Assembly: GCA_947184155.2 (NCBI GenBank)
Contig: CAMXCT020000525.1
Coordinates: forward strand, 62,001 to 126,000
Direction of reading: 5' to 3'
From: Cladocopium goreaui
Taxonomy: Eukaryota; Sar; Dinophyceae; Suessiales; Symbiodiniaceae
Length of the DNA: 64,000 nucleotides
The notes beneath the pieces were generated by a model. The model had not been told where the DNA came from, made no database searches, and was given only the letters and a program-made list of their open reading frames with translations. Below, in pieces: positions 7,437-28,308 of the stretch. The translations under genes were made by a program, and so were the position numbers. Every line of letters starts with the position of its first letter. Within the stretch, counting starts at the first letter, position 1.

Positions 7437-9090
7437 TTGAAATCAACGAAGACGCAGTAAATGTGAGCCAGGTTTGAAATCCTTGATTGATGTCGACAAT
7501 GTCAACACCAAGATCCTCGAATGCGACCTTCAATCTGGCCGCAAGGAGCAGGACGGACTTTCTGGCCTCCAATGTTGGAGCTGAACGCTTGTAGTGGTCC
7601 TGGGTATTGGCGGAGCAATTAATGCAATGGGACGGTCTCGACTGGCATGTCTCGATCTCATCCATCGTCACCGCATTTCTGCAGGTTCCGCATAAGATGT
7701 CGGAATTCTCCTTGTCGATGGTGAACCACATGCATCGATCGGAAACAACTGGTTCCAACTCATGGGTGCCTACTACTGGTTCGACCCAACTGGTCTTGAA
7801 CCTCTTGTCCTTTGTGAATCGGTTGACGGCGGTTCCAGGGCCTCGCTGGAAGATTGTTGTGTCATCATTTGCATAGTCACCTGGGGTCATCTCGCCACTG
7901 GCAATCCTGAACGCCTCAGTCGGTCCAGTCATATCCTCCAATACTTTGGTGTTGATGCCAGATTCATCGGGTTTGAACGCCCCCTCGTTGAGGACTGAAA
8001 CGTATTCCCGGTTCGTGGCACACATGAGGAATACTCTTTGGCGAAATAGGTTCTTCTCAATCACAGACCAAATTGCCGTCTTCCCCAAAGTCCCCTTCTT
8101 GGTCGTACTCAATATTGGATATTGTTTCCCAAATTGTGAATACATTGATCGCCACATTCTTTGGTCAGATGTCACCAAGATCCCTTGGAGCCTCATCTTC
8201 TCGATCAGCTCATCTGCGAGTCTTGACGTGACAGAGTCCATACCGTTGAACATGGAGTCATTGTTGATGGCGACCATCAGAGGTCGGGACGTAACTTGAT
8301 CAAGATCGAGCACCCCTTTGACAAACTTATTCTTGAAGTCGTTTTCAAGCATGACACAATGAGGTGGTTTTTGTGCATGTAGGAACTGCAATGACAACCA
8401 AAGGTGCACAGTTATCAAACCATCGTCGACGGTATCCGTGCTAAGGTACTGCTTGACTTTGTCAAGGGTGTCGAGGAATTGCTGAAGTGGTCGTTCTGCT
8501 TCGGAATCATGGATCTTGAATACTTCAACACTTTCCCATCCCATGTCAGCTAATCCCATTTGGATGCCATGCGTCCCACTTTGGGTTCCCACGCGGAACA
8601 TCAGGTCGGTGATAAGGATGGTAGTTCCAGCCCTGAAGTCACCTGCCAACATGTCGTGATCTCGTGGACCGTTTGGTGCTTCGATGATCCTGCAAGCAAG
8701 TGGGTTGGTGATCATCTTCTTGATGCGGCCCAAGTCAGATTGGTTGGCGACATTCACGTCGTGATGCCCTAGCATCATGAGCATTCCTGCAGTCGACAAA
8801 TAGCACCCTGTCCGCGTCAGCATGTACTTGCGGACGACGTGGCTGTAGCACCTCAGCCAGTCCTTCTCGGAGATGGTGGACGCGGTGTCCTCCGTCACGA
8901 CCGCCGGATTGCAGATCCCGAAGACCATGCAAGCATATGCGGTCACTCTCCTCAAATATTGTGCCCAAGGTGCTGAACCTGAAGTGCTGGCAGCTTGAGC
9001 TGCTGGGCCTTGGATGATTGATAGTAGGAAGTGATCCCGCTCGTCCATCCATGCCGATGTGATGAACTCTGAGTTCCTTTGATCGGGCAT
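7294..9090 (-). CDS. Copia polyprotein segment, unknown function (598 codons)
   Basis: Frame between the 357-codon frame upstream (overlap 8952-9090) and the KptA-bearing frame downstream (overlap 7294-7436), each in a different phase. The overlaps are best read as two frameshifts in one original frame, or less likely as programmed shifts. I recognise no catalytic domain. It has a CX2C...C...CX2C cluster near the C-terminal third (about 7700-7610). It has no membrane segment and looks globular and soluble. Its place after RNase H is outside any standard copia module. It could be a second Gag-like or envelope-substituting protein, but nothing in the residues decides this. Confidence 0.65.
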   Translation of the reverse strand: MPDQRNSEFITSAWMDERDHFLLSIIQGPAAQAASTSGSAPWAQYLRRVTAYACMVFGICNPAVVTEDTASTISEKDWLRCYSHVVRKYMLTRTGCYLSTAGMLMMLGHHDVNVANQSDLGRIKKMITNPLACRIIEAPNGPRDHDMLAGDFRAGTTILITDLMFRVGTQSGTHGIQMGLADMGWESVEVFKIHDSEAERPLQQFLDTLDKVKQYLSTDTVDDGLITVHLWLSLQFLHAQKPPHCVMLENDFKNKFVKGVLDLDQVTSRPLMVAINNDSMFNGMDSVTSRLADELIEKMRLQGILVTSDQRMWRSMYSQFGKQYPILSTTKKGTLGKTAIWSVIEKNLFRQRVFLMCATNREYVSVLNEGAFKPDESGINTKVLEDMTGPTEAFRIASGEMTPGDYANDDTTIFQRGPGTAVNRFTKDKRFKTSWVEPVVGTHELEPVVSDRCMWFTIDKENSDILCGTCRNAVTMDEIETCQSRPSHCINCSANTQDHYKRSAPTLEARKSVLLLAARLKVAFEDLGVDIVDINQGFQTWLTFTASSLISNASLAYVGAFDEISISHGRSQNFEEASSGNFPERTRQAIQHLSRKSF

Positions 9091-10025
9091 CGAGGATGTC
9101 CTGAAAAGATATCCGGTACCCGAGGAATCACCCAGTCCTTTCTCGCGGGAGGTGTAGATGGCCTTGCCTTCGATGGTGGTGCTTTTGGTGGTGGTGCACT
9201 CCCAGCTGCAGAGCTGGAACCATCGTGTCCACCGAAGGTGGAACCACTAGGCCCAGTCTGTTGTTGTTGCTGTTGTGCCCGCTGCGCATCGGCTTCCCTC
9301 TGTTGCTTGTCATTCATCATTCTGATAGGTGAAGGATCCCAACCTGGATGATCCGGTTGACTTGGAGGGTTTCTGCCGTCTTTCGGCATCAGCGGAATGT
9401 CCCAGCCATCGATGTGGGAGACCTCTGTGGCCCCTTGGCCCATCTGTGTGGTGGCAGTGGTCGTCACATAGTCGCGAATACAGGAAAATGTCCTGTTTCG
9501 TTTCTCCACCTCCTCGAACATGCCCTGATCGGCCCTCTCGATGTTGTAGCCCCCCAACTCCCATATGTCGTCGCGGAGGTCAATGGCCTGCTTCATTCTG
9601 ACCAGATCGGCTTTGATGATCCCGCTCAGGTGCGACATGGATTTGAAGTTTTCCAGTCGCGTCATCCACTCATGTAGCATCTTGGAGACCATGAGGATGG
9701 TTTGTAAATGGACGACGGCCGCCGTCCGCTCCAAGCTGAGATCATAGTTCATCGACATCCAGTCTTCCAGGACATTCTGGACGATGATGGTCTTACCCTG
9801 GCTGCTTGTCGCCCTGGCATTGTGGCGACGGAGCGCATAGCCTAAGCTGTAGCTCTCCTCGTACATGATGTTGACCAGGAATTTGATGCGGTCTTCAACT
9901 TCGTCCGGGGCAGGTGCCTCTCGTTGCATCACTTCAAATGACCATTTTTCCCACTTTCGACGGGCAATCTCCTCTGGGGTGGAATTAATTGGGGATTGTG
10001 TGCTGATTGTTGGTGCTTGCACCAA
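8952..10025 (-). CDS. Copia polyprotein segment with Gag-like character, 5' end replaced by TIR
   Basis: The first about 17 codons of this 357-codon frame lie inside the left terminal inverted repeat (10022-9974) and are not original. The true sequence starts at the TCCT duplication (9970-9973) and is the in-frame continuation of the frame ending near 23757. The body is a helical region rich in charged residues (about 9960-9450), followed by a Gln run (about 9258-9285) and a Pro/Ala/Ser-rich linker (about 9250-9130). This layout of helical domain, low-complexity linker and nearby zinc knuckle resembles Gag proteins; that is an inference. The frame shifts near 9085 into the next segment. Confidence 0.65.
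   Translation of the reverse strand: MVQAPTISTQSPINSTPEEIARRKWEKWSFEVMQREAPAPDEVEDRIKFLVNIMYEESYSLGYALRRHNARATSSQGKTIIVQNVLEDWMSMNYDLSLERTAAVVHLQTILMVSKMLHEWMTRLENFKSMSHLSGIIKADLVRMKQAIDLRDDIWELGGYNIERADQGMFEEVEKRNRTFSCIRDYVTTTATTQMGQGATEVSHIDGWDIPLMPKDGRNPPSQPDHPGWDPSPIRMMNDKQQREADAQRAQQQQQQTGPSGSTFGGHDGSSSAAGSAPPPKAPPSKARPSTPPARKDWVIPRVPDIFSGHPRCPIKGTQSSSHRHGWTSGITSYYQSSKAQQLKLPALQVQHLGHNI
9970..9973. other. Target site duplication TCCT, left
   Basis: TCCT directly precedes the left inverted repeat, and the same four bases follow the right inverted repeat at 23753-23756. Four identical bases could arise by chance (about 1 in 256), but keeping a single copy restores the interrupted reading frame, which supports a real duplication. 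Confidence 0.8.
9974..10022 (+). repeat. Left terminal inverted repeat, 49 bp
   Basis: Exact reverse complement of 23704-23752, with identity ending at 10022. Reading inward it starts CTGGGGTGG and ends GGTGCTTGCAC. Identity over all 49 bases suggests a recent insertion, or selection on the ends. Confidence 0.95.
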
Positions 10026-10585
10026 TCATACACATATCATGTTTTGTTTTTCTCCATTTTAATTTTCCAAACCAGCATGTACATTTAATCAAATAATAGA
10101 AAGCAATCTTATACATGTACATTTCAACATTAAAAAAACTAATGGCTACAAAGCTAGCTTGCAATATGATCGTATGTAGGTTGTAGATGTTTGTTTTTGT
10201 TTGTGCTTAAGTGCAGAGCCCCTCCCCGCTCTGCACGGTGGCGCCCTCCAACAAACTGCTATAACCAAGTAGCGGCGCCTCCCATTAGATTACTATCAGG
10301 AGGCAATGCCTTCCTTGACAGCTGCAGCAGGAGGCCTCATTGGCGGCCTGCCTTGCATGAAGCTATGCAATGCACACTGTGTTCCCAGGAGGGTTGTTGA
10401 AAAAGACCTCCTTGAGTTGCTGGTCGCGGAGCGGGCAAGCTTGCCCAACTCAAGCCCTTACAGGCATACGGCAATCAAACAACTCTTTTTGACAGCTCAA
10501 ACTTGCTGACCCTTCCAAAGATCTAGTCGTCTCTCAGCCATGTCAAAAAATCATGCCAAAGGCAGTGGCCACAGCAGCGTCAAGA
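10023..10585. other. Left subterminal region of the TIR element, no gene seen
   Basis: AT-rich up to about 10190, then mixed sequence. No supported reading frame. By position it may hold transposase-binding and 3' processing signals of the minus-strand genes, but no repeated motif stands out. Confidence 0.5.
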
Positions 10586-11116
10586 CTAAGTCTCCAAATT
10601 TGCAAAGCGAAACTCCAAGTGCACGTACAAGTCGTCCAGGCAAACAGCGGAGCCTTGCAAATGCGCTGCCTGGGGAATTCCTGACCCAATGGCTCCCATG
10701 GCACTTGCAATGAACAAAGCAGCGCTTTCCACCTCATCAATTTTTCTCTCCAGGCCAGCCTTTGACTTCAAAGCCACGCATTGTTTCACTTTCTTTTGCA
10801 AAGCCTGGATTTCTACGTTCTTGTTGTAATAGTCAGCGGTCCATGGCACATCTACCAGTTCATCCTCAGGATAGTTCAATGAATTCTGCAGGATTGTAAG
10901 GAACAAGATTGCCTGGACAAGCGCCACGGATCTGGTCCTGTCTTCGACAAAAAATTGCCGGCAGAAAAGCAAACATTCACGAGCGTTCTCAAGTTCATGC
11001 TCACTCTTTGCCCTCAGGTTGGGGTCCCATTGCAGAAAGGCACGGATGCCCAGCTGCAGGTCAGCTTTCGCCAGGACACCTTGGGGCTTGGCATTGGCAG
11101 GACGAGCTGCTGCCAT
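10586..11116 (-). CDS. Small helical protein of unknown function (TIR element)
   Basis: Single frame of 176 codons with an ATG start (11116) and a stop at 10586. I do not recognise it. It is rich in Leu, Ala, Glu and Lys with predicted long helices, has no signal peptide or transmembrane segment, and ends in LEFRFANLET. It lies just downstream of the methyltransferase gene and is the gene nearest the left inverted repeat. It could also be the last exon of a longer gene. Intact codon structure over 530 bp and the good start codon support it as real. Confidence 0.6.
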   Translation of the reverse strand: MAAARPANAKPQGVLAKADLQLGIRAFLQWDPNLRAKSEHELENARECLLFCRQFFVEDRTRSVALVQAILFLTILQNSLNYPEDELVDVPWTADYYNKNVEIQALQKKVKQCVALKSKAGLERKIDEVESAALFIASAMGAIGSGIPQAAHLQGSAVCLDDLYVHLEFRFANLET

Positions 11117-11298
11117 GTTACTGAACTACTTTGTCAGTTCAAACCTGGATGAGAGCCAAAAACCTGTGAGCGATACAACATGGGAAAAAAAACACGCTTG
11201 GTTTCTGGAGAGGCTGACCAAGTCTTAATTTTTGAACTCTGCTGGGAGGCTGACAAACATTGATTTTTGAACTCTGCTGGGTCTAGTGCTTTTCGCGT

Positions 11299-12675
11299 TT
11301 AAAGGATGCCACGTGCCTTGAAAATGCAGTGCGCTAAGAGTCTCAGCACACCAGCACTCATGGCATTTCCAAGCATGTTGCCTAACACGCTTGCTGGAAC
11401 ACATTGCGCAACATCTTTACGCCCATATGCCCCAGGCCACATGCCCTGAAGCAAGAAAAAATCTCGTGGCTTCTAAAACCTTTGGCCCTGATGCCACCAA
11501 TATCCATGCTTTCCTTTACACCGGCTTGCTGTGAGACAAGGGCACGTGTCCTGCATCCAAGTTGCCTTTGATCCACCTGTGTTAACTATGAAGTCAAGGT
11601 CTCGCTTGGCAGGATTTTTTTCAAGAAATTCTTGAAACTGTTTCAAATTCTTGCGGACGGTGTTGCTAAGAGCCAAGCCATCGGCATCATGCGTCATTTC
11701 CTGCAAGTTGCGCTTCTCACTTGTGGCGGGGTTGCCTAGGAGCTGCTTCAGTGTGAGCCTCTCCTTGCACGCCAATGGCCACTCAAACTGCTTCACTTGC
11801 ACATCTCTACGAATGCCGATGACATAGACCCGTTCTCGGTGCTGTGGAATTCCAAAATCCTGCGTGTCCACTAGCTTGTAGTAGACGTTGTAGCCTGCAG
11901 CCGCTTAATCAAGGCCGCTGGCATGGGCAGTCAAAAATCAAACAATAATACAAAACAAGAAAAGAATTATAACGCAGCTTAAATACAGGGCTGGCCGTTG
12001 GGAAGCACAATGTCTCTCAAATTCTGAATCAGCCAGTTGAACTCGTTGGGAAAGAGGCTCATAAGACCTTTCACATTCTCGGACACAAAGCTGCGAGGCT
12101 TATGCTTTTTGATCTGGAAGGGGATCAAGGCCATGAGACTGCCTCTTTGATCTGAAGCACCGTCCTTGCCACCAGCCACACTCCAAGGTTGACAAGGGCT
12201 GCCAACTGTGTAGAGATCAACATCAAACCAAAGAGGCTGAAGATGCTGCGTGTTCTCCATGTTGTTCTCCAGGTACTGAGGCTCCACAAATTGAGTAATG
12301 AAATTCCTTCAGGGTGATGATAGTAAAAAAACAATTTGGAAACAAACATTTTTGAAAACATATGGGCCTAAATTTCGGTTCAATCTCAGAGGCGTAGACG
12401 TGCTTCACGTTGACTGTGGCAGGCAAATTGACTCGCACTGCTGGCCCTTCTGTGCAAAGACCAGAGCAATCAGATGCCAAGGTCACTTCAACTACAGAAC
12501 TTGGAGGCAGCACAGGTAAGAGTTCGACTGTCTCAGGCTGGGCAGGGAGCAGCGTGTTCTTAGACCTGGTAGCCTTGAATCTGCCTCCCTTGGAGGCAGG
12601 TCTTTTCTCAACTTTCCGAGCTGCTCGCTTTGGAGCTACTGCCGTTGCGTGTCCATTGCCCCTGGCTTTCCCCAT
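11299..12675 (-). CDS. C5-cytosine DNA methyltransferase, three exons, premature TAG
   Basis: Transfers a methyl group from S-adenosylmethionine to C5 of cytosine in DNA. Exon 1 (12675 to about 12340) starts MGKARGNG, has a basic Ser/Lys-rich head and carries the motif I-II region (ASDCSGLCTE, then VYASEIEP). Exon 2 (about 12290-11980) carries motif IV GSPCQPWS with the catalytic Cys and motif VI SENVKGL. Exon 3 starts near 11907 after a CTGCAG acceptor and carries motif VIII, PQHRERVYVIGIR. An in-frame TAG at 11475-11473 then interrupts the frame. Past it the same frame continues with DFFLLQGMWP and motif X, LGNMLGNAMSAGVL, to a TAA at 11301-11299. The conserved motifs beyond the stop show this is a nonsense change, not the natural end. 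No CXXC, BAH, chromo or PWWP domain is present. It is a bare catalytic protein of roughly 400 residues, closer in layout to prokaryotic or DNMT2/element-borne forms than to DNMT1. Confidence 0.85.
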
Positions 12676-12994
12676 GGACAGTGACAGTTAGCGACCTAGT
12701 GCTGAAAATCTTGCAGTCACAAATCACAAGGGTAAGTTAGCGCAAAAAAAAGGCAAAACCGATGTCACACACGACAACCGAAAGAAATAATGCCAGCTGC
12801 TTCAGTCAGCCTGCTTTATGTGCCACTTGCGCTGCACTCCTGGATAGATCTGAGCGCGGCACTACTCTCAAAGGATGGCACTACTCTCAAAAGATCTGAA
12901 TCTGTTTGCCCCAATGGTCGCGGAGCGGGGCCTCACAACAGTCAGGTCAAAACAAAACTGCCCAGTGTTAGGGTCTTGTCTCCAAGCTGCTCTC

Positions 12995-15900
12995 TCAGGA
13001 CTGGCTCAAGTTGGCCAACTGGTTGCGGAACTCGGACAGAACATCGGCAGCTGTGCCGCTGCCACTGCCACTGCCGCTGCCAGTGGCGCTGCCACTGCCA
13101 ACTGCCTCAGAGCTTCCTTGGGCGCTGGGCTGGCTTGGTGGTGGCGCTGTCGCGGCAGCAGTGGACGCCCTGGATCGATCTCCTCCCAAACCTTGGATAA
13201 CAAAAAACAAAATGGATATTTAAAACTGGATGTTAATAAGCTAGAAGGAGTTCACGGATTTGAGGCGAGGGTATTGAATATCCAACTGTACATCCGAAAT
13301 ACTTTTTCTGAATCTATATAACCGCAACGATGCTGAATTCTTGGCAAGAAACTGGCTGCAAACTTGGCCTCGTAGACCGGCTCATTGCTGTGCAGCATCT
13401 TCAGCATGATCTGACAGACAACCCTTTCCGTCACAGCGGCCATGTGCTCTTCAGTCAAGCAGGCTCCTGCGTACGGCACACGCTGCAGGGCAGCAGCCAA
13501 AGCCATCTGTCCGTCTCCGACGCCGGCGTCCAGCACAGCGCAGAGATTGTAGGAACTCAGCAGTTCCAAGCACAAAGTCATGGGGCGGCTGTGCCAAAAC
13601 ACAGGCTCTTGACTGGTCAACTTGCGCGAGGTGACACCCCGGTGGCTCTCGGACTCTCCAGTTGTGCGACCGCCCACAGCAACACGGAACTTTCCAAAGA
13701 GAGTGACCTTGTCCTGCAAACACAAAAAAATCAATGAGAGATGATAGACTTAGACGGGTTAAAGTAAGAAAAAAAAACTGATGTCCTTCAAGGTCATGGA
13801 CCACAGCGTTTGAGGGCTGTCCAGGAGAACATCGCCGATCTTGTTTCCAAAGTTGGAGCCCTTGAAGTGCTTCCGGTTCTACTTGGTCATGCAATCTCCG
13901 AAAGACTCAGACGTAACAAGGGACATCTGCTCGATCTGCTGGAAAGTCGTTGTGTTGGCCTTGATGTACTGGCGGCGCTGCGTCAAAGAATCTTCATCAT
14001 AGCTGACGAAGACTGTGAAAGACTGCTTGGTCATGGCCTCACCGCCTCCGGTCTGAAAGGCTCCCAACCATTTGGGAAGATTTCCGGGCAAGAAAGAATC
14101 AAAGTAGATGAACAAATCCCTGCTATGGATGCTCAACTGCTGGTTGTCGCGGTTCTTGATCACAGCCGACAGGAAAGTCTTCAAGTACTGCATGTTCAAG
14201 GGACAAACTCGGATGTGAGGATTGGTGATTGCCTCCCCCCACTGGGCAGGATCACAGAGGATACCAACGAAAGACTTGCCAGCGCCACGTGCTTGGGCAG
14301 CTGCAGTTTTCTCCAACAGTTCACCCAATTCCTTCTCTGAGCTGGGAAAGACAAACATCTGCACATTCGAAGCCAGCAGATTTCGGGCCTTGTCTTCATA
14401 GTACTGGATGCTGTCAAGCAACTCTTCTTTCTTGATCTCGCCAACGCGGGCTTGCACATCCTCCAGGAATGCCTTGTAAGCACCACTGCGGATAGGCTTG
14501 CCTGAGTCATCTCGCTGGTTCTCAGCCTCTTCGCCTTGCATTTGAGTTCGGGCTGCTGCAGATGCTTCTGCCCTGGCTTCGTCGAGCTCGTGGCGCAGGA
14601 AGGTCTTGAACTCAGAGTAGCGCTCCCCAAGCTTGGTGTCCATGTTGAGCGCATCCAAGGGAGACTTGCCAGCAACCAGCGCGGCTTTCAAGTTGTCGTC
14701 GAAAGTAATGCCAAAGACCACGTCCTATGTCTTATGCATGAACGATGATAGCTTGGATAGGGGCAAGATGGATTCAAATACTTCAGGGGCAAGGGTTGCA
14801 TCATGAAAAAAAATGATGAAACTCACGGTCCTGAACCAATTGCAGAATGTGATCTGCGGAGCGGGACCAGCCGGCTTTCCAGGACAGATCCTTGGGATTA
14901 CTTGGGAAACCAAACTTTGCTCGGAAAGCTGCGTGCGAGGAAAAGACTTCTTTCAAAGACACGCGGTACTTCTCTGGCAAATCCTTGGCTTCAGTGCTCA
15001 GAAGGAAATCTCCAACCATGTAGTCTCGAAACCTCAGCTTGTAGAGCAGAAGGTCGCAATGGCCTTTGCCACCGGGCCTGCCCTCACCAGTGAAGAATCT
15101 CACAGACTGGTTTGGATCCAGAAGCCCTGCCACTCTGGAGTCATGCATGTGATGAAACATCCATGCAACCTCTTCTTGCCGGGAAGATTTGCTGCACACG
15201 GCATGCAACTTGCTCACAGCGTCCCAAATGCCAGAGCCAGTGCCTTCTTCACTCAAGATCACTTCCAAAATGTGTGGGTGCCGCAAGGCTCGGTCCATGA
15301 CAATTGAAGAGTGATGCAGGAAGCCTGCCCGAAAAGAATCAACCCCTTATATTTTAAAAATGAACATGTAGATTTGTTTCGTTCCATGCCCGGTATCATG
15401 TAAAAAAAAGAAGGATATAGCAGCTACAGATTCAAACAATGTTTCTTAAGCGGTCCTTTGGTGATTTTCTCCGACTTTGCGCTCAAGTGGATCTTGCTGC
15501 TATAGAGCTGGATCAAGCTCTCCGGAGTGTAGGAAACGCCCATGGAGTCCCGCTTCTGCATCACATCAAAGATGCGCTGAGTCGGGGTCCTTTGCAGGAA
15601 AGACAACTGCGTCATATCCTCACGCAATTGCTGGGCAGCCCATTCCATTTCATTCACGTCAGAGACCACTCGGATCAGCACTGGGCAGGTCAGACAGTGG
15701 TTGAGCCACTGCTGCAAAAGTAGGTCAGAAGCACCCTCGGCAACCTTGGCCGCTTCAGCGCTTGCAGCTTCAAAGAACGCCAGAATGCTCTCTTCTGCGC
15801 TGAGTCTCTTCCACGTGCCGGAGGCGGGGAAGGTCTTGCTATCCATTTCTTGCTTCAAGATGCCAACCGTGACCTGCTGCGATTCCATGCCGCATGGCTG

Positions 15901-16332
15901 TGCAAACCAGTGAGTCTTGATCTGCTCGACTGCGCCTTTGTTGATCGGAATCTGGGGTGTCGGTGACCAAGTCTGGTCAAGCCACAAGAGGTTGATCAAG
16001 CACATGTACTTCCCATCTCGCTTGAGGCTTTCCAAGGCAGCATTCTCGTCGAAGACCTGGGCAAAACTGCGGTCAAGAGGCTTCATCTGCACCAAGTCCT
16101 CCGACACTGCCTGCTCTTTGAAAACACGGACATTCTCAAGGTGAGTGGCCCAAATCTTGCCGTTCAGAGTCAGGGCCTGTGCGTTCACACTACTAGGTTG
16201 CTGCAGTGGCAAAGCCAAAGCCAAAGCTTCAGGAGAGCCTGCTGCAGGCACAGCAGCAGCAGCAGCCTTTGCGGCTGCCTTCGCTGCCTTCTGTTTTGGA
16301 GCAGCGGCGCCTGCAGGACCACGCTTGCCCAT
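12995..16332 (-). CDS. Multi-exon gene with SAM-binding-like motif, unknown function (TIR element)
   Basis: Five coding blocks in one direction: 16332-15424 (ATG start, MGKRGPAG, Ala/Lys-rich head), about 15298-14801, about 14725-13879 (begins DVVFGITFDDN after a TAG acceptor), about 13734-13330, and about 13195-12995, which ends in a Gly/Ser repeat and LANLSQS before a stop. Block four contains VLDAGVGDG followed by PYAGACLTEEHM. This resembles motif I of class I SAM-dependent methyltransferases, so a second methyltransferase is possible, but no catalytic motif such as (D/N)PP(Y/F/W) was found. Block three is helical and Glu-rich. Exon edges are approximate. The start has the same MGK opening as the neighbouring DNA methyltransferase gene. 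The blocks could belong to more than one gene. Confidence 0.6.
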
Positions 16333-17420
16333 GGCTGAGGCTCAAGGCAAGGTCTGGCAGAAGGCTTTGCTTCGACTACTTTGTCGGCTGAAAACTTTTG
16401 GAAAGAAATATAACAATCAACAATGCATCGGTCTCACAAAAACATAGAAGCTATACAACAGGACCATGATCATGAATCCATGTAGACAAAATATGGCCTA
16501 GGCGGTGAGCCGTACTATTGCCGCCGGACCGTACTAATGCCGGACAAGACATAAGCGATAAATACGTATTTTCTTGCCATGCCCGCGAGCCGTACTAATG
16601 CCGGACAAGACATAAGCGATAAATACGTATTTCCTTGCCGTGCTCACGACCCGTACTAATGCCGGGCAGGCGTGCATGATGAACACGTATTTGCTTGCCA
16701 TGCTCACGACCCGTACTAATGCCAGGTCAACTTAGAGAGCTTCCAGGGCAAGACTGCCATGTGAGCTCATGGTAAACCATGCCAGAACACGGCGGCAAAA
16801 TACGTATTCACTGTTGGTGCTAAGGAATGGTCTTCCGTGCCTCCACACGGCGAGTTGTTTTCTTTATTAAACATCTCTGCTGTGTGAGCACATGGTACAC
16901 CATGTCAGAACACGGCGGCTAAATACGTATTCAGCTGCTGTGTTCGGCATGGTCCAACCGTGTAAGACATGGCGGTCACGCTGCTCTCTGGCATTAGTAG
17001 GGGATGGCTTTAGTAGGGTCCTCAAAGCGCACGACAGAACAGTTCAAAGCTTCCTTACAAATCTCATTTCCTTGCCAGGTGGACTGTAGGAGCCAATGAT
17101 ATTATTGGCAGGAAGTATATTACTGCAAAAAACTTCCTTCCAAAAAGTTTTCTCTGTTGCGTGCCATTCTTGGTTAGGAGCACTAGTCTCCTTCCCCAGA
17201 AGATAACATGTTACCCTAGCACATGATATAGCTCACTTCATTAGGAGCCAGCGGCTTCCTTCTGTAGGAGCTCTGTCCTCTTATGCTTCCTTCACCGATT
17301 TTCGGAGCAGGAGCAACTAAAAACACCGCAACCCTGCAGCAGGCTCAGCAAGCAACTTTTTCCACGCCTTAGCTCACGGCCATCTTCTGGCGCAAGTCGC
17401 GGCGTGACACCGGGTGACGC
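16333..17420. repeat. Upstream intergenic region with tandem units containing AATACGTATT
   Basis: Between about 16510 and 16730 a unit of about 61 bp is repeated at least three times; it contains CCGTACTAATGCCGG and the perfect palindrome AATACGTATT. The palindrome or a near copy recurs at about 16564, 16624, 16684, 16799 and 16922. The last two sit in a different, longer context with GAACACGGCGG. The rest (about 16980-17420) shows no gene. The array lies directly upstream of the minus-strand gene starting at 16332, inside the TIR element, so it may be a promoter or a protein-binding array. Confidence 0.75.
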
Positions 17421-18441
17421 TTAGCACACCCACGCCCAGGTCCAACGACCTTGGCCATTGCCGCTCCCCCAGTCCTGCCATGACTTCCAGTCATCGTCCC
17501 TGCGCTCACTTGTTGGCCCTGAGTGCCAGTCCGTCCAGTCGGCCCACTCGTCCTCTGCGTCCTCTTCGGTGTTCCAGCGGCCCTTCTTCTCTTGCTTCTT
17601 CTTTTCGAGCCAGACAGGTCTCTTCTTTCCACGGCTTCCTCTGTGGTGCTGTGGCCACTTGGCTTCGAAGTGGGCTTTGTAGAGGTCCTTAGAAAAGAAG
17701 CAGGCTACAAATAACGTAGATGAGTACATGACCATCTATAAGCTTACAATTTCAAAATTATGGGGCAACTAAAAAAATAGAAAGATCATTGATTGCATTG
17801 GGCCAAGTTACGCAGCCAGTGTTCATGCACACCCCACGGGCAGAGTACGCCATCTCGTTGCAGACCTTGCAACGCCTGAGACCCAAGGTTGGGTTAGCAC
17901 TGGCACCTTTCCCATTCTTTGGGTTTTTGCTCTCATCGTCCGGCACCTCAATGGGCCTGGTGGCTGTGCCATTGCCAGCAGGCGTGGCAGCCGCATGCGC
18001 CCTCCATGGCGGAGACACTCCCATTGCCGGCGCCATTGGCATCGGCGGCTGTAAGCCCATTGGAGCCATTGGGCCCATGGGCACACTTCCCATGGGCACA
18101 CTTCCCATGGGCACACTTCCCACTGGCATTGTTGGCGCCGTGGGCGGCGGCATCATCATGGGCGCCACAGGTTGCAGTGGCGTTGGCATCGCTGCCGGTG
18201 TCGTCACGGGCGCCACAGGTGCCACTGGGGTTGGCATCGCTGTCGGCGGCGTCATGGGCGGCACTGTCGGGGGCACGGGGGCGACTGGTGGCACATTGTG
18301 CGGCCGTACCCCGGCGCGCCATAGAACCTGCCAGAGCTCACCGAACGTAGACGGCGAGCTTGGCGGGCCGTCAGGCTCCTTCTCAGGATCCTTGCCAGCC
18401 AGCAGGAGCAGCGGCAAGGTCAGGAGCACCAGCCGCAACAT
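17421..18441 (-). CDS. Secretory-signal, Pro-rich protein with CX2C zinc cluster (two exons)
   Basis: Exon 1 starts with ATG at 18441 and a hydrophobic head, MLRLVLLTLPLLLLAG, that looks like a signal peptide or anchor. A Pro/Met/Ala/Val repeat region follows, with four copies of a GS(V)PMG-type unit near 18085-18120. Then comes a CX2C-x10-CX4C cluster (RRCKVCNEMAY...) at about 17885-17825. A second block (about 17714-17421) opens after a TAG acceptor with FFSKDLYKAHFEAKW and is Trp/Asp/Arg/Gly-rich, ending WTWAWVC before a stop. I do not recognise the family. The link between the two blocks is inferred from spacing and direction. Confidence 0.5.
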
Positions 18442-18626
18442 GGCAGCTTGTCACACTTGTAGGGGGGTTGAGTGCTCTGAAGTGCAACACGGCTGCAAAG
18501 GAAAAATGAGACATATCTCCTGCCGCCCTGAAAGAATTTAGATTCAAAATGTCCAAGTGAAAAAAATGAGTGTGATGAGTACTTGATTTTTTTCAACTCA
18601 CTCAACTCGACTGGCGGCTCTCTGGG

Positions 18627-18975
18627 TTATAAAAAAAGGCTTCCTTTCCAGATGTGCATGGTGACTGCTCTCTGGTGAGGAGCCTTGGTGTGAAAAGAAT
18701 CCGTGGTCAAGAACCTTGCTAGGAGAAAAAAATCCTCCTTGTCAGATAGGCACGGTCGCTTTTCTCTGGTGAGGAGCCTCAGTAGAAACAAGAGGCGTCC
18801 TTTCCAGATCTGCATGGCGGCTTCTCTCTGGTGAGGAGCCCCAGTGGGAACAAGAGGCATCCTTTCCAGATACGCGTGGCAGCTTCTCTGTGGTGAGGAG
18901 CCTTGTGCGAAAAGAAAGGCATCCTTCCCGGATAGGCATGGAGCTTTTCTCTAGTGAGAACACTTGGCGAAAGAC
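18627..18975. repeat. Tandem repeat, period about 62 bp
   Basis: Units marked by CTCTGGTGAGGAGCC occur at about 18672, 18762, 18824, 18886 and, degenerate, 18948. Spacing is about 62 bp after the first. Each carries a TCCTTTCCAGAT-like segment. Open frames across it repeat the same peptide and are not taken as genes. It lies between two minus-strand genes of the TIR element. Confidence 0.8.
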
Positions 18976-19073
18976 TCCCTTCCACAAAACAAGCATGACA
19001 AGAATGATAGAGAAATCAGCGCCTCTGAAAAAAACAGCGGACTTTTTCGACATGGATCTGGCGCAAATCATGC

Positions 19074-20133
19074 TCAGTAAGTAGCTGCGATGCCGCTCCG
19101 GCTGCGGCTCTTATCTTCTGCACAGAAAACAAAATGATCAACTGCCTCGGACAAAGTAAAGACCAAACGAACCGCTTCAGGAAAGACTTCGTCTCCTGCA
19201 TCGGATCTCAGAATCAACAATTGCCGGGCTCTGCTGACATTCAGTTTGCCAATCATGTCTTGCAAAGATGCTCGGTTGAGCAATTGGAAATTACAATCTT
19301 GAAGTTGCAAAATGCTACTGAACTCTGTGCAAAGCTGTGCATGCCGCCGCATAAACGCGGGCGTGACGAAAACATGCCTCTTGGTCTTGATCGCTGGCTT
19401 AAAAGCTAGCGCAACACCTCTGACGCCCTTGGATTCGACAAAGTCCTTGGAGGCCAACAAGCCGCCCACCAGGCCAGCCATGAAGCGAACTTCCTCATTG
19501 CAATTGCAAGGGTCGGAAACGACAAAGATCCGACCGCTGTGCAAATTAGGGGCGAGGACCGCACTATCAGGCAGAACAGCGTTGCATCCTGGATCAGCAT
19601 AGATGGGCAAATCGTCTGACCAGGCAGCCTCGGTTGACAGTTGACATCATTGTGCGTTTGTGTGCTGATGTGCGTATATCAATCTGTGTGTGTGTGTGCA
19701 TGCGTGTGGAAATTAAATAAGAAGAATGTCGCTAATAAATTCAAATTCAATACAGCATCCTAGGAACTGCTTTCTGGGACACTTTGTTCTGGATGACTTT
19801 CTGGTCATTGTTCCTCTCTCTTTGAATCTTGGCAACCTTACCTGCATACTCTTCAGCCAGGGCCACCATTTCAGGCGTGATGTCTTCTCGTCGCACCACT
19901 CCAAGCAGCAGCTCTTCGATGCGAGCCTTCTTCTCCTTCTCGTTGCTGAAAGCAATTTCTCGCAACTGCTTCTCCCCAAAGACTTCTGCAATCTTGTCCG
20001 CTGTCGTCAGCGTCTTTGGCAGTGAAGTCGACGACGAACTTTTTGCGAGTTCATCGTTGACTAGCTGGCATCCTTGCAGAAAACCTGCCTCTCCGTCTTT
20101 GAGACGCTTCCTGGAGGGGCTACCCAGCGTCAT
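19074..20133 (-). CDS. Unknown two-exon protein (TIR element)
   Basis: Exon 1 runs from an ATG at 20133 (MTLGSPSRKRLKDGEAG) to about 19800. It is charged and helical, with a basic stretch at the start that could be a nuclear localisation signal. Exon 2 (about 19635-19074) contains PIYADPGCNAVLPDSA, a CNCNEE segment and a compact alpha/beta-looking region up to GIAATY. I recognise no domain. The pieces may instead be internal exons of a larger gene that also includes the zinc-finger/hAT-like gene upstream, since direction and spacing would allow it. Confidence 0.5.
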
Positions 20134-20172
20134 CAAATTAAAAAATCATGAAAGATTGTATAACAATTGTTC

Positions 20173-23100
20173 CTAATTCAAAAAAGCTACAGAGGGGGTT
20201 GGAGCTGTCCTTTGAATTCCGGTATCCCATCGTTGTACCCGCTTGGTCTGACCACTGCTACGAACTCGTGAGCAGTTCTTCACCCACAAGTCTTTCGCGG
20301 CTGCGATCAGGGTCTTCTGATCGTGGCTGCTGGCATCCTGATGTAGGATCAGCAAAGTTTCTTCACCAGTCACATGGTCATCTTGACTTTGCCCCAATTG
20401 CTTCAAATTTTGGGCTGCCCCCAAGCCGCGTTCGACACCAGAGGAACTACACGACCAGCAGCCGAGTCTCGCCAGCGCCGGGATGATGGCTTCTGCACTG
20501 TGCATCCGGCTCTTGGATGTACGCGCAATAGCTGCGCTCCATGCAGCAAAGTTCTGCATGCCTTCAACTCCGGCCATCTTCTCAGCAATGGCGTGGAAAT
20601 GCTGGAATTCGAATTTCAGCGCTTCTGAATCGATGCCTATTGCTTCTGCTATCTTTTCTAAACAATTGTTTCTTTCTCCAGACTCCAATTGCTTTTGTGT
20701 CCTGGATGAATCAGACAAACTGAAGACGCGCAGGCTCGATACAAGCTGGAAGCTGGGGAACTCACCCTCAAGGACAGACTCAGTGACAACTACATACGCT
20801 GCCATTCTCTTGAGGCAATTGCTTTTGACATCTTGCGTGACAGTCCCTGGCCCTCCAAAAGTGCAGCGAAAACCAGCAGAGAGCAACAGTTTCTGCTTGT
20901 CAAGATGTTTCAGCATCAGCTTGGTCAAGCCAACATGCAGGCAAACTCCTTCGATGAACAACTTGCGGATCACCGAGCGATACCTGTCGAGCTCATATGG
21001 GAGCTCACTTTCGTCGCACTCCTCTGCATCGAATGCTCTTACGACACGGTGGAGCTCCAGGGCTGCATCGGCCAGCATGGCCAAAAGGAGCGCTTTCTCC
21101 GGCGTCAAGAAGGCCAATGTTTCAAGACATGCATTCCCTTCAGTTGAAGTTCTGCCTCTGATTTCTGGCAAAGCAGTGAGAACACCGAGGACTGCATCCC
21201 ATGTCAGCACCAGCCTGGCTAGCACTTTGGATTCCGAGCTGTACCTCTGCGGCGCAAACGCCAAATCTCGGATATTCTTGCTGATGGGAACAAGTTCGTC
21301 AGTTTTCTTTCGGAAATTGCCATACAAATCCTTGACAGCTTCACTGTTGTTAATCAGCCTTGCAATGGATTGCGGCTTTTCCACGAAATGCCCAACCACT
21401 TCCTTCAGGACAGCATCTGCGGACCAAGGACGGGACAACATCCTCTGAGCGGCATGAGCTCTGTCTTTTCCCAGCACCTCAGGGTGAACAAGGGATTTGG
21501 AACTTTAAACTCTTAGAATTTCAATTTCTTCTTTGTAAAAAAAACCTGGGAGCCTTCAAGTTTGGAAACGCTTGGCTCATGACTTCTTGCAATTCCACAA
21601 CGTTTGGCCCGCTGATTCCGGCTAGGTCTCGGAGAGCCAGTTGTTCGTCAGCTGCTGCGTCTGCTGCCATGCACTCCACTTTCTGGGTGAGATGCCGAAG
21701 CAAGGCGTAGTCGGTTTCCTTTTCCTGCTTTCCTTCAGACGTGAGACCGCTGTAACTTGGAGGAGTACTTGGTCTGCAAAAATTTTCCAAAGCTTTCAGT
21801 GTCATTTGTCGAATGCCTTGGGCTCCTGGAGTGTCCGGGCTGTAAGTGATCTTTGTCAGCTGAAGAGTGCTTGTGCAGACTTTCAACTTGGAATTCACTG
21901 CGCGGAAGCGGACAAGGAATCTTCGGCCACGTGCATCTTGCTGCAGGGATACACACAGGGCATCTTGCATGAAGGCACGCTGCGCTTGCCTGATTGCTTC
22001 ACTCAGGCACCATCGCATCATGTGAACTTTTTTCCTATTGCCAACATCTGTGATATCAGCAGGACAGTCATTGGGCTTGGAATGCTCCAGCACGGACATC
22101 CACTCAGCATGCGTCGGACAAAATCCTTCCATTTCTGGCAGTGAAACTTTGCCAGATGCCAGGCTCACAGCTGTTCTGTGAGCAGGTGAGTCTGCATGCT
22201 TTCGAAAACGGGCCATGCGAATCTCTCCACTGCTCACTTCGAATCTTGCGAAATGGTGTCTACTGACGGGAAACTTCGACATGACTTCAGGGGACACTTG
22301 CTGAGAATCATGGCAGAGCCGGCAGCCAATGCCCCACTGGCCAGTCTCCATATCCACTTTGGAATCTATCCATGGCAGGTCTTTCTGCCATTGCGTTTTG
22401 TAGGTTGCCCATTTACATCGGGCACACTTCTGGACACCTGAAGAACAAAATTTCAGATGTGCTGCATCATCATAGCCACCGACTTTGAAGTCAGGCTGCT
22501 GCTCCATCACACCTATTTCGCTTGGATTGAACCCAAAAATGCGCAAAGTCAGATCAAGTCAAAATAGATTGACAAACAAACATGTCGGCGTGCAGTTCTT
22601 TCACAGTGACAAACTTGTCCCTTCCAACCAGAGCCCTTTTTGCCTTGATTTCAAATAGGGCCAGGCTGTGAGGGAACTGAAGCCATGAAAGCGCCAAACA
22701 AACAGCATTTTTTGCAAGTGATAATTGCGTGGTCTCACGGCGGTTGGGGGTGCAGGTGGCAGTTGGCAAGGAAAACAACTGATCCACTGTGAATTAATTA
22801 TTTACTAGTCTAGTCAGAAGCACTTGCAAGAAAGCTAAACGTCGTCTCTCCTACATGCCGAAGTCTTTTCGGCAAAGAGCTACAATGGTCAGGAAACATG
22901 CCCTCGTCCTCGCGCCAGCGTTTTCGCAAGCATTCATGATATTCATCCTCGGCATCTTGTTCCTTCTTGGCGTCAATCATCTTCTCTGCGTCAGAAGCCA
23001 TGGTGAATCCAACAGTCTCTTTCACCTGCCAAAAAGACGCAGGATCTGAACAAAAAAAACTGAAAGGAAGAAAAACAATTGTCACACCCAGACCTTGTCA

Positions 23101-23324
23101 TCTTTCAGGTGGCCCAGGGCGATCTTGACTTGAGAAAGGAGCCATCGAACCTGACCATCCTCTTTGAAACCATCTTTGGAAAGAAGCGTCTCCAACTCCT
23201 CTTCACCTGAGATGCAACAAACATTTTGCAAACGTTTGTTGGGCTTGGGAAACAACAGCATCAAATGAGGGGCAGACGTTTCAGCAAGGTCTGAACTTGG
23301 AACCTGAATCTCCGCTGCACCCAT
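20173..23324 (-). CDS. Candidate transposase: TTF-type zinc finger plus hAT-like C-terminus (five exons)
   Basis: Blocks on the minus strand: 23324-23097 (ATG start, MGAAEIQVPSSD; donor AAG|GTCTGG); about 23044-22850 (DPASFWQVKETVG..., acidic-basic helix); about 22770-22554; about 22550-21521; and about 21480-20173. Block four has WGIGCRLCHDS, then FARFEVSS and FRKHADSPAHRTAV. This C-x2-C...H-x4-H layout matches TTF/BED-like DNA-binding fingers of transposases. Block five ends with SSSGVERGLGAAQN, which resembles the SSxxVER segment of the hAT C-terminal dimerisation region. The catalytic D/D/E residues could not be placed by eye. It is the first gene inside the right inverted repeat, transcribed inward, a usual place for a transposase. 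Weak points: short motifs, approximate exon limits, and a target duplication of 4 rather than 8 bp. Confidence 0.55.
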
Positions 23325-23679
23325 TGCCAGTGCTGACGGGCAGGCATGGTGCAGGATGCCAGTGACGCTGTTTGGACCAAAAGCTCTTTGCAGTCAAAAA
23401 TCATCATGTTTCAATCAAAATGCAAATCAATTTCTCCAAGACATGAACGGTGTCAAGCCCCTTCCAACCAATGCCTTCTTGGAATTCAAGCAGGAAGTTG
23501 TGAGGGGCTAATTTTAGTTTGCAAGCCAGCAGAAACATGAAACGGTTGCGCCACAGGGTTGTTTGATATATATATATTATATATCATGCATGCATGTTTA
23601 CCCTAAGCATGTCCACTAGATAGCCAATGATACTACAACATGATTGGAACCGATGTAAGATAGTAATATGAAAAAATGT

Positions 23680-26022
23680 CTACCTTGAAGGCCTGTATGC
23701 ATCGTGCAAGCACCAACAATCAGCACACAATCCCCAATTAATTCCACCCCAGTCCTCGAAGTTCGTCCTCTTCCGGATTTGGTAACATGAACTTCCATAT
23801 GGAGGGTATGTTTGGTTCAAGGATCCGAGGTGTGTTGGACTCGTATTTGCAATCTTGTCACGTAGTCCCTTAACCGTGATCTCCTTGTTGATCATACTAT
23901 TTTGCCCGGTGTAGTGGTCCTTGAGGGTGTCCCATAGTTCATCTATTCTAATCGCACACTCAAAGGTGCACAAGAGCTGCATGATGCTCTTCTCCTCTGG
24001 GTTTCTGGCGGCCCCTTCCACCAACTTTGATAATCGGGCCCCTTTGTCGATGAAACTGATGGCAGACATCTTCAACTCATTCTCATTGGTCACTTTTGAC
24101 AACATCTTCATTAGCAACCTGATTGCATGAGTTACGAATACTCTGCCACTTCTATCCATGACAAAGGCTAAGGCCACAACGACAGGAGGAGAAATCTTCA
24201 CTCGATCCAACCATTCGTCGAGGTCCTTATCCTTGTAACCCCTGAAGTTTGCCTCCTCATAGGTTGAGAATGGAGCAGGAAGGTTGTGCTCTTGTTTCTT
24301 CTCCTGAATGAGGGACAGGGTTGACTTCAGTAAGCTGATCCCCTTGGCCGCTGATGGGATTACAAGGTCAGTTCCAGCCATTGCGAAGACCGAAATGAGG
24401 CTAGGAGAATCCGGATCCGTCAAGGTGCACCAACGACGCAGGTAACAGCCTGACTTCACCTTCAGTCTACCTTCAACGGGATCCGGATCCGCCAAGAGTG
24501 ATCCACGAAGTGGATACAGCCTCAGCTTCACCTTCACACCGCCTCGTCGGGTGATGAAGTTAATAAATAACTGTTCATTGATGGTCTTCACGTTGGTGTT
24601 GCATTCATAGTCATTCATGATGACACATGCACATGACTTCGACTTATAGTAATCTTCCTCTTCCATAACCTTTGGTCGAAATCTCCTTCCATAAACGTTG
24701 TTAATCAACATTTGATTTGTGACACCACGAAGGATGCATCTGACAATCTTCTCGGTATATAATTGTGTTGCACGTGTTTCTCTACCCGCACATTGACCGT
24801 GAGTGTGTGAGCCATCACATTTTTCATGCAAGTCAAAGAACTCAACTCCCCATGATACGATCCTCCATGGTTTCTTGATTGCGGTCCCAACATCTTTGAA
24901 TTGTGATTTCAAACCATACATGCATCCATCAAAGTCATGCACAGTCGACTGGGTCCCACTGATCAGAAACTTCATTCTCTCGTCATTCCAATAGTCGCAT
25001 CCCCGAGGTAGTTCCAACAATGCCATGGCATGCAAAATATGTACACGCTGCAGACACAATGTGAACTCTTCCCATAGCTCCCAATATAGAAGTGCTTTCA
25101 TTCTGATGTTGTGTGCTGTGACCTCACTCACATTTTTGTTTAACCGATTCCACGTTGAACCACCGGTGCAAGGTCCCGCAAAGAACACGCAGTCACTAGG
25201 GCCCCTGATGCAACGTCTCCATTTCGCCCTTCCGTAGTTGGACATGAGGTTGTCATCTTCGGTGATTGTGACCACATGCATCATCTTAAACCGACTTTGT
25301 TTGTGAATCTTGGTGATGATACTTTGCGTTTCAGCACACATAAGGAGCAAGCATGGGACATCATCTTTCATCTCATATATGTTGAGCGATATGACAACGT
25401 CATTGAGTATCTTCCCGAGAAAATCAGCATAAGATTGCTTGAAGTGATATGTCAGAATCTTCCCATTCTTTCGATGTAGTGTCATCTGGATATCCCAATC
25501 ATTTTGTTTTCTGGTCTCATGCTTCAACTTGTAATGATGGGCTATAAACATGTCATCCAATGGAATGATTTTCATGTTCCCATCAAGGATACAGGTGACC
25601 ACGGTGTCCTGGCACGATGCCCTGTCCTCCACGTCAGATCCGCTGTCCATCACATCTTTGATGTCTGCATTGGATATGATCTTGAAGGTAGTGGTCCCTG
25701 TCCAAAATTCATTTCTTTTGTTGGTCTTCTCGATGTTATTCCCCGCCAATCTCCATGAGTCATGGATCAATCTCCCACTTGACTGAAACACTTGGTTAGT
25801 TTCCCGTTCATCTCTAAACCGTCTCAGCTTACATGGCAGAAAGTCAGCCTCTTTGGGGGTAAACATCTTTCTTCTTGGTACTTTGTGCACTCTCGTCAAT
25901 GTTGTTTCATCCTTCCATATCCATTCATCTTGATCACATTCATTTTTGGATATCTTCTTTCCCTTTCTTGACGACGTTGATGGGTTATAGGCTTTGTCTT
26001 TTGATACCCTACCAGCAATCAC
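23680..26022 (-). CDS. Copia polyprotein segment with C5-methyltransferase-like motifs (780 codons)
   Basis: This frame follows the RNase H segment with a 4-base overlap (GTGATG|TGA) in another phase. Its first codon is GTG, so it was probably translated as part of the polyprotein. The middle contains FFAGPCTGGSTWNRLN (about 25190-25140), then LLELPRGCDYWND (about 25020-24985), then CDGSHTHGQCAGRE (about 24825-24785). The spacing and residues recall motif IV (PC..G.S.W) and motif VI (E-N/L-V/P) of cytosine methyltransferases, but the fold is not proven and it may be a different Rossmann-like domain. The last genuine codons are at about 23757; the rest is inverted repeat. Joined to the frame starting at 9973, it continues in phase. 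Confidence 0.65.
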   Translation of the reverse strand: MIAGRVSKDKAYNPSTSSRKGKKISKNECDQDEWIWKDETTLTRVHKVPRRKMFTPKEADFLPCKLRRFRDERETNQVFQSSGRLIHDSWRLAGNNIEKTNKRNEFWTGTTTFKIISNADIKDVMDSGSDVEDRASCQDTVVTCILDGNMKIIPLDDMFIAHHYKLKHETRKQNDWDIQMTLHRKNGKILTYHFKQSYADFLGKILNDVVISLNIYEMKDDVPCLLLMCAETQSIITKIHKQSRFKMMHVVTITEDDNLMSNYGRAKWRRCIRGPSDCVFFAGPCTGGSTWNRLNKNVSEVTAHNIRMKALLYWELWEEFTLCLQRVHILHAMALLELPRGCDYWNDERMKFLISGTQSTVHDFDGCMYGLKSQFKDVGTAIKKPWRIVSWGVEFFDLHEKCDGSHTHGQCAGRETRATQLYTEKIVRCILRGVTNQMLINNVYGRRFRPKVMEEEDYYKSKSCACVIMNDYECNTNVKTINEQLFINFITRRGGVKVKLRLYPLRGSLLADPDPVEGRLKVKSGCYLRRWCTLTDPDSPSLISVFAMAGTDLVIPSAAKGISLLKSTLSLIQEKKQEHNLPAPFSTYEEANFRGYKDKDLDEWLDRVKISPPVVVALAFVMDRSGRVFVTHAIRLLMKMLSKVTNENELKMSAISFIDKGARLSKLVEGAARNPEEKSIMQLLCTFECAIRIDELWDTLKDHYTGQNSMINKEITVKGLRDKIANTSPTHLGSLNQTYPPYGSSCYQIRKRTNFEDWGGINWGLCADCWCLHDAYRPSR
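23704..23752 (-). repeat. Right terminal inverted repeat, 49 bp
   Basis: Exact reverse complement of 9974-10022, followed by the second TCCT at 23753-23756. The last codons of the 780-codon frame read into it, so the C-terminus as written there is not original. Confidence 0.95.
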
Positions 26023-27824: not shown

Positions 27825-28308
27825 AATACAACCAAGGTAGAGTCCTAAGATGTCCTAAGTCAGTCTCGGGCTCGATGTTGAGTTTTGATCGAAGCATCTC
27901 CCAACCCTTAGTCAGGTTCTCTTCCGGTCCTGCCAGCTTTAAGTCGTCTACATAGATGACAAGAAGTAACTTCAGTTTCTTGTGAAAATACATTGAAGGC
28001 CATTCTTCTCCAACAGGAACGAAGTCGAGTTCTCGAACTTTCTGATCACAGTGTTGTTCCCACATTGTTCCCGAATCGGGGTGACCATATAAAGCTTTAA
28101 CCAATCTAACAACTGGTCTACGAAACTTTCGAAAATCGACATCGTCTGGCCAAGCATCTTCGGGTAGCTCAACCCAACATGGTGGTCCGGTTAGTTTTGC
28201 TTGAATGTACGCCTGAATAGCGTCGGCAAGTTTTACATTATGACCAGGAAGACACCCATAGAAATCAGCCCATCTCGATGCCTCAAAAGTAGCTGGAGAA
28301 TTGCCCAA
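27796..28308 (-). CDS. Copia reverse transcriptase core
   Basis: RNA-dependent DNA polymerase of the element. It contains LADAIQAYIQAKL, equivalent to the copia D-V-x-x-A-F-L motif A, then VVRLVKALYGHPDSGTMWEQ, matching the copia KALYGLKQ-x-P-x-x-W block, and the catalytic VIYVDDLKLAG (YVDD at about 27962-27946). The fingers part (RKFKGRGVLLGNQVKNQ) is still in the preceding frame. A frameshift near 28310 and another near 27850 separate the domain from its neighbours, so this copy cannot make an intact polyprotein without recoding. Confidence 0.9.
   Translation of the reverse strand: MGNSPATFEASRWADFYGCLPGHNVKLADAIQAYIQAKLTGPPCWVELPEDAWPDDVDFRKFRRPVVRLVKALYGHPDSGTMWEQHCDQKVRELDFVPVGEEWPSMYFHKKLKLLLVIYVDDLKLAGPEENLTKGWEMLRSKLNIEPETDLGHLRTLPWLYFEKGIYQTS

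Follow-up and report, generated by a model that had tools for sequence, protein, structure and literature searches.

What is the segment with inverted ends that interrupts a retroelement of Cladocopium goreaui and carries a C5-DNA methyltransferase, and does that enzyme work for its carrier? In the window (the whole stretch of DNA that was analysed, 64,000 nucleotides), positions 9974-23752 form a segment with inverted ends and a TCCT target-site duplication on both sides (9970-9973 and 23753-23756, directly outside the arms, no strand assigned). The two terminal inverted repeats, 59 nt at 9974-10032 on the plus strand (methyltransferase side) and 23694-23752 on the minus strand (transposase side), are identical at 56 of 59 positions when inverted, the first 49 without mismatch; by an arithmetic estimate, the chance expectation of a perfect 49-bp inverted pair in 64 kb is ~1e-20, and several insertions with the same ends rule out a chance repeat. 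When the segment is taken out together with one TCCT, two long frames on the minus strand become continuous and in phase (...RKRTNFE followed directly by EIARRKWEKW...). The uninterrupted joined site of 177 nt is full-length in all 40 scored retroelement copies of the same genome, at 97-100% identity, and four of the 40 are 100% identical to it; this scoring covered 40 places out of 295 first-look candidates and the window insertion only. The perfect 49-bp inverted repeats, the matching TCCT flanks and the exact in-frame repair of the interrupted retroelement that a sequence-only reading of this locus had described are all present, as are the retroelement paralogues without the insertion that it had named as support.

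In a search of the organism's own genome, nine of nine candidate end matches fall into five copies of the window family. Three further complete insertions, 98.5-99.3% identical, are bordered by the duplications CTAA, AGGA and ATGA and bring the complete copies to four with the TCCT-flanked window element; the fifth copy, C3020, lies at a contig end and is counted as the C113 insertion because it has 12 nt of flank and an end variant in common with C113. A second family, family C, encodes a transposase 58-73% identical to that of the window family and has related ends, beginning CTGGGGTGGATTTAGT; three of its four paired copies have exact 4-bp duplications (TATA, TCTA and CTGG), and the fourth, C1466, is bordered by two dissimilar tetranucleotides (CTGG and TTGA). 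Of the seven exact duplications, two lie inside simple repeats, an AGG run at C113 and a TA run at C2979, and so count for less. Element size across the family is 13-14.5 kb. Dispersed copies with different flanks rule out a host gene cluster. The several copies with the same ends, common internal genes and 4-bp duplications (exact in seven of the eight paired copies of the two families) anticipated by the earlier reading are thus found, and together with the many uninterrupted target paralogues they make it practically certain that the segment is, as that reading had held, a large DNA transposon.

The interior genes of the window element lie on one strand and contain introns, which in the gene models are GT-AG, GC-AG and GA-AG, a set that suits a dinoflagellate. 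In C2568, the one family C copy read, five of these genes recur in unchanged order: transposase, proline-rich CxxC protein, large protein, C5-DNA methyltransferase and small protein. In the window these are, all on the minus strand, a transposase-like gene at 19074-22507 (exons 22507-21546, 21502-20210, 20110-19819 and 19628-19074, all four open; 1033 aa); a proline-rich protein with a C-x-x-C motif at 17421-18441 (at least two exons), whose counterpart stands ahead of the large gene in family C; a large protein at 12995-16332 (exons 16332-15438, 15324-14831, 14724-13786, 13713-13353 and 13191-12995; 961 codons); the methyltransferase at 11473-12675 (exons 12675-12368, 12306-11987 and 11894-11473; 349 aa up to an in-frame TAG); and a small protein of 176 aa at 10586-11116, relatives of which are found behind the methyltransferase in family C (52% over 145 aa) and P0007 (58% over 110 aa). 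The succession of large gene, methyltransferase and small gene also occurs in the adjacent-named EukProt proteins s225_g23/g24. A small two-exon gene of 148 aa (22810-23324, minus strand) is present in the window family; at E 0.01 the family C copy has nothing that matches it. The spliced methyltransferase model matches PF00145 at E 9.7e-33, in keeping with the earlier description of a same-strand, intron-rich gene set that includes a cytosine methyltransferase. A likeness, by eye, of the C-terminal part of the large protein to methyltransferase motif I has no library support and is not claimed; PDB profile searches with the transposase and the large protein gave no lead, nor did searches of genome_contigs. 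P0029 is 88-100% identical to C2568 over most stretches and 63.6% in one short stretch.

The transposase has residues D191, D283 and E678 in a hAT-like D-D-E pattern. The three residues are unchanged across six aligned sequences (in P0005, a truncated protein, the E678 is produced by the alignment and is not real), and the pattern recurs in a 1022-aa ORF, ~27% identical, that contains STSAIEQNFS. The SSSGVE motif of the transposase resembles the hAT motif. The pattern is thus conserved, without a profile or structure match: neither a Pfam transposase model nor one for hAT dimerisation matches the transposase, and its sole Pfam match, to zinc finger PF25431, is below the cut-off of that model. 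The transposase is probably of a hAT-like D-D-E type. With hAT, including hAT5, hAT6 and hAT7, it has in common the D-D-E spacing, an S-x-S-x-x-E-type motif near the C-terminus and an N-terminal zinc-finger-like region; unlike hAT, the element has no hAT Pfam match, its ends start CTGGGGTGG, and its duplications are 4 bp in both families, against a usual 8 bp in hAT, with 5, 6 and 7 bp known, the 5-7 bp in hAT5-7 (from excerpts of PMC12730594). Placement in the hAT superfamily is rejected because of the duplication length and the lack of a hAT domain match, and the misfit that the sequence-only reading had sensed between a hAT-like motif and a 4-bp duplication is upheld. The Kyakuja-Dileera-Zisupton (KDZ) transposons, set beside the present element by description, are likewise DNA transposons known for cytosine-modifying enzymes, but the same excerpts of PMC12730594 give duplications of 8 bp for Zisupton and Dileera. 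A further transposase group is ~30% identical, and one element boundary was seen there.

The window copy is in decay: two of its cargo genes carry stops, and its transposase frame is open. Its methyltransferase frame contains PCQ, ENV and QHRER; the C-terminal GNA motif lies past the stop and is present in relatives. In C5-methyltransferases PCQ, ENV and QxRxR are catalytic motifs, and GNA is a motif of the C-terminus. The stop is a TAG at 11473-11475, beyond which relatives read on and the window frame is open to ~11299; it is absent from two sister copies. In the large gene a TAG interrupts the frame at 13879-13881, a position at which relatives carry an amino acid (the large-gene matches in C158, C113 and C935 run across introns). 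With its methyltransferase truncated, the window copy therefore cannot be an active source.

The best explanation overall, and a likely one, is a cut-and-paste transposon family with a five-gene cassette, the cargo serving the element and the window copy in decay. A D-D-E transposase of hAT-like type would bind the CTGGGGTGG ends, excise the element and reinsert it through a 4-bp staggered cut, and the C5-methyltransferase and its three partners (large, CxxC and small protein) would serve the element. The most likely role for the methyltransferase would be to mark element DNA, which when excised or newly inserted would then bear heavy CG methylation of the kind reported for Symbiodinium genomes, or else to tune transposase expression or binding. 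That self-methylation is the purpose of the enzyme is a suggestion to which we give somewhat less than an even chance. Its target may instead be the host genome or competing elements, so that it would silence rivals or antagonise host control. According to excerpts of PMC5890265, transposable-element-borne methyltransferases in Symbiodinium methylate CG de novo, and effects in trans are therefore possible; however, the low copy number of the window family (four or five copies from nine end matches) makes a genome-wide role less likely, and such a target seems unlikely.

Slightly less likely still is that the cassette is an accidental passenger, ordinary host genes caught between transposon ends with no benefit to the element. 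Apart from the transposase, no gene of the element has a known role in transposition, and the window copy has lost two cargo genes yet is present; against this, the same genes stand in the same order in two families, and the 27-42% difference between their transposases is a divergence over which unselected cargo should have decayed. Between family C and the window family, dN/dS is well below 1, at 0.18 for the methyltransferase, 0.12 for the large gene (with a dS of 2.1, near saturation) and 0.33 for the small gene, calculated on codons taken from tblastn matches that may include a few intron-edge codons; the transposase comparison is saturated (pN 0.23, pS 0.81). Among the young copies of the window family, dN/dS is ~0.3-1 and gives no sign of selection. 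The values for the methyltransferase and the large protein therefore indicate that the cargo is kept by selection, and it probably serves the element. A retroelement or virus-derived (Polinton-like) carrier owning the inverted ends is highly improbable, for although some LINE and DIRS elements of Symbiodinium are known to carry methyltransferases (excerpts of PMC5890265) and protists, according to excerpted sources, harbour large virus-derived elements with inverted ends, the interior ORFs that were scanned have no Pfam match to an integrase, polymerase or capsid or, as the earlier reading had observed, to a reverse transcriptase, the genes have introns, the duplications are 4 bp, and viral_contigs, a collection that may not hold dinoflagellate elements, is without relatives of the transposase or large gene. 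One viral_contigs search returned ten loci with short matches.

The cut-and-paste family resembles SymbioLINE-Dnmt and SymbioDIRS-Dnmt3, described in excerpts of de Mendoza 2018 (PMC5890265), in being a dinoflagellate mobile element with a C5-DNA methyltransferase. Those are retrotransposons with a reverse transcriptase and mostly intronless methyltransferases, whereas the present element is bounded by inverted ends and 4-bp duplications, its transposase is D-D-E-like and its genes have introns; the same excerpts mention methyltransferase-bearing DNA transposons in marine viruses (reference 16 therein). The TET/JBP-carrying DNA transposons of fungi (Kojima 2025, PMC12730594, in excerpt) are also cut-and-paste elements, hAT among them, with a captured cytosine-modification enzyme; theirs is a demethylation-type dioxygenase in fungi, in contrast to a methyltransferase and three further proteins in a dinoflagellate. 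Tentatively, and with less assurance than for self-methylation itself, we propose that these elements may be the first known from a DNA-transposon lineage not described before, a distant relative of hAT, which would depend on its own C5-methyltransferase and partners and write cytosine methylation on its own DNA for transposition or for survival in a heavily methylated dinoflagellate genome.

DNA methylation is usually something that transposons suffer. Here a coral-symbiont alga houses a large cut-and-paste family with a conserved gene set that includes a DNA-methylating enzyme, and the family may bring its own tool for epigenetic marking. The transposase catalogue gains a lineage that combines 4-bp duplications with a hAT-like catalytic pattern. 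A methyltransferase kept under selection in two families offers a direct test of whether mobile elements write cytosine methylation and do not merely receive it, and the same system bears on the origin of the unusual methylomes of dinoflagellates.

The segment at window positions 9974-23752 has the terminal structure described in the sequence-only reading. Its 59-nt inverted ends are identical at 56 of 59 positions, the first 49 being free of mismatches; TCCT lies directly outside each end; and removal of the segment with one TCCT restores the long minus-strand frame that it interrupts. This host frame is downstream of a retroelement-like region of the window; a Pfam-type domain scan of the ORF at 28233-34202 found a zf-CCCH domain above the cut-off and an aspartyl-protease match below it, and a copia-type RNase H-like stretch in the ORF at 26019-27854 was recognised by eye only. 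Another ORF of the host retroelement region (3423-7442, minus strand) matches Tpt1/KptA RNA 2'-phosphotransferase (PF01885; E 1e-5, 26.1 bits versus a cut-off of 26.0). The expected uninterrupted paralogues exist: the joined flanks (177 nt) match at least 40 places at 97-100% identity, all 40 scored among 295 candidates being full-length and four of them 100% identical. Thus, the window insertion is secondary to the spread of the retroelement.

Further copies, also anticipated by the sequence-only reading, were found by searching the source genome (1.166 Gb, 6202 contigs; the window is C525:62001-126000) with the element end: nine matches (nine candidates, all scored) represent five copies, four of them complete with 4-bp duplications. 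Besides the window copy (TCCT), the complete copies are C158:45379-59148 (CTAA, 99.3% identity), C113:1018103-1031826 (AGGA, within an AGG run; 98.5%) and C935:366021-385924 (ATGA, 98.6-98.8%, with a 6.18-kb insertion). The single end on C3020, after which the contig stops, has the flank and end variant of the C113 copy and is counted as the same insertion. The 6.18-kb insertion is repetitive and of low complexity, contains a 100-N gap, and lies within a methyltransferase exon, the one in which the window methyltransferase has its stop; the C158 and C113 copies have no stop in that stretch.

The interior is intron-containing and all its gene models lie on the same strand, as first read, here the minus strand, with GT-AG, GC-AG and GA-AG intron borders: a transposase-like gene (four exons, 1033 aa), a proline-rich CxxC protein, a large protein (961 codons), a C5-methyltransferase (PF00145; 349 aa up to its stop), a small protein (176 aa) and a 148-aa gene adjoining the transposase-side end. 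At 16519-16933, between the CxxC gene and the gene for the large protein, lies a possible regulatory region: tandemly arranged, imperfect units that contain CATTAGTACGG and the palindrome AATACGTATT. The C-terminal part of the large protein (12995-13713, minus strand; VLDAGVGDGQMALAAAL) resembles a SAM-binding motif by eye; library searches with it gave no match. Residues D191, D283 and E678 of the transposase are invariant in a six-sequence alignment, E678 of the relative P0005 being an artefact. Its motifs QDARG, ADAAADEQ and SSSGVE, and STSAIEQNFS in an ORF about 27% identical, look hAT-like. In profile tests the sole match was a PF25431 zinc finger, below cut-off (best E 0.004, in two of six members; E 0.0015 in a second test), and a PDB profile search with the family gave no match.

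Among 8000 scored candidates, the transposase has five relatives: P0001 at 77%, P0002, by name a Cladocopium goreaui protein, at 56% over 29%, and three others at 28-31%. The methyltransferase has 23 among 999 candidates, the closest (33 member sequences) at 98% over 37%. The large protein has three among 8000 candidates, P0029, P0030 and P0031. The two that carry the name C. goreaui, P0029 and P0030, share 876 of 886 aligned residues and are not independent of the window's genome; independence is possible for P0001, P0006, P0007 and P0031. The P0029 prediction fuses the CxxC protein (a weak match), the large protein (68%) and the methyltransferase; its CxxC part has a Smith-Waterman score of 86 versus 36.4 +/- 6.2 for shuffles, none of 500 reaching 86, and BLAST gave no match at 1e-3. 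In P0007 (EukProt s225_g24.t1), the end of the large protein (70%) is joined to the methyltransferase (63%) and small-protein (58%) sequences; going by their names, P0007 and P0031 (s225_g23.t1) are products of neighbouring genes.

A genome search with a 752-aa transposase query (68 matches; 60 of 365 candidates scored) found relatives at about 73% on at least eight contigs, at 54% on at least two, and many copies at about 30%; degenerate copies lie on C3398 and C5831. The 73% family has ends CTGGGGTGGATTTAGTAAGG; over their first 50 nt, these agree with the window family's ends at 37 and 36 positions. Its paired copies are at C2979:433862-448318 (TATA/TATA, inside a TA run), C682:87249-100450 (TCTA/TCTA; arms identical over the first 27 nt), C3723:9059-22268 (CTGG/CTGG) and C1466:53466-66684, with CTGG on the left (10 nt as at C3723) and TTGA on the right, unlike flanks that could come from recombination or misassembly. 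On C2568, one end at 82440 is followed by transposase, CxxC, large, methyltransferase and small protein genes up to the contig end; the 148-aa gene has no match in this copy (E 0.01). From C6026:602137 on lies a third subfamily (transposase 72%, end CTGGGCTGG) in which the first transposase exons form one continuous frame. Five places (C2363, C5793, C4502, C113:917303 and C3533) have the N-terminal part of the transposase alone (residues 2-155, 65%) and may be gene fusions or products of deletion. In two copies of the 73% family, L043 and L044 (C1485, C3144), the sequence preceding the transposase on its upstream side is unlike that of loci L045 and L046. The ORF at 3217-6285 of locus L049 and ORFs about 30% identical form a large group of intronless transposase relatives of about 1000 aa with the same D-D-E pattern.

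The 4-bp duplications and empty sites indicate that the element transposes by cut-and-paste through a 4-bp stagger. No description of a methyltransferase-bearing DNA transposon in dinoflagellates was found in the open literature, subscription papers and Repbase being outside its scope; DNA transposons encoding a methyltransferase are known from marine viruses according to PMC5890265 (its reference 16), which limits the novelty of the present element. The same paper describes Symbiodinium genomes as mostly methylated at CG and the retrotransposon methyltransferases of Symbiodinium as having de novo activity. The CpG observed/expected ratio is 0.63 in the element versus 0.79, 0.73 and 0.67 elsewhere in the window, which may weakly fit methylation; a role for the element's own methyltransferase is something we infer.

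Codon comparison of the 73% family with the C158 copy gave dN/dS of 0.18 for the methyltransferase (dN 0.206, dS 1.14, 347 codons), 0.12 for the large gene (0.255, 2.10, 849 codons) and 0.33 for the small gene (0.41, 1.26, 145 codons); the transposase is saturated (pN 0.233, pS 0.81, 1022 codons). Among window-family copies, most ratios are 0.3-1 with few changes, the small gene reaching 1.5 or being undefined. These values indicate that the cargo was under constraint during the divergence of the families and that young copies decay.
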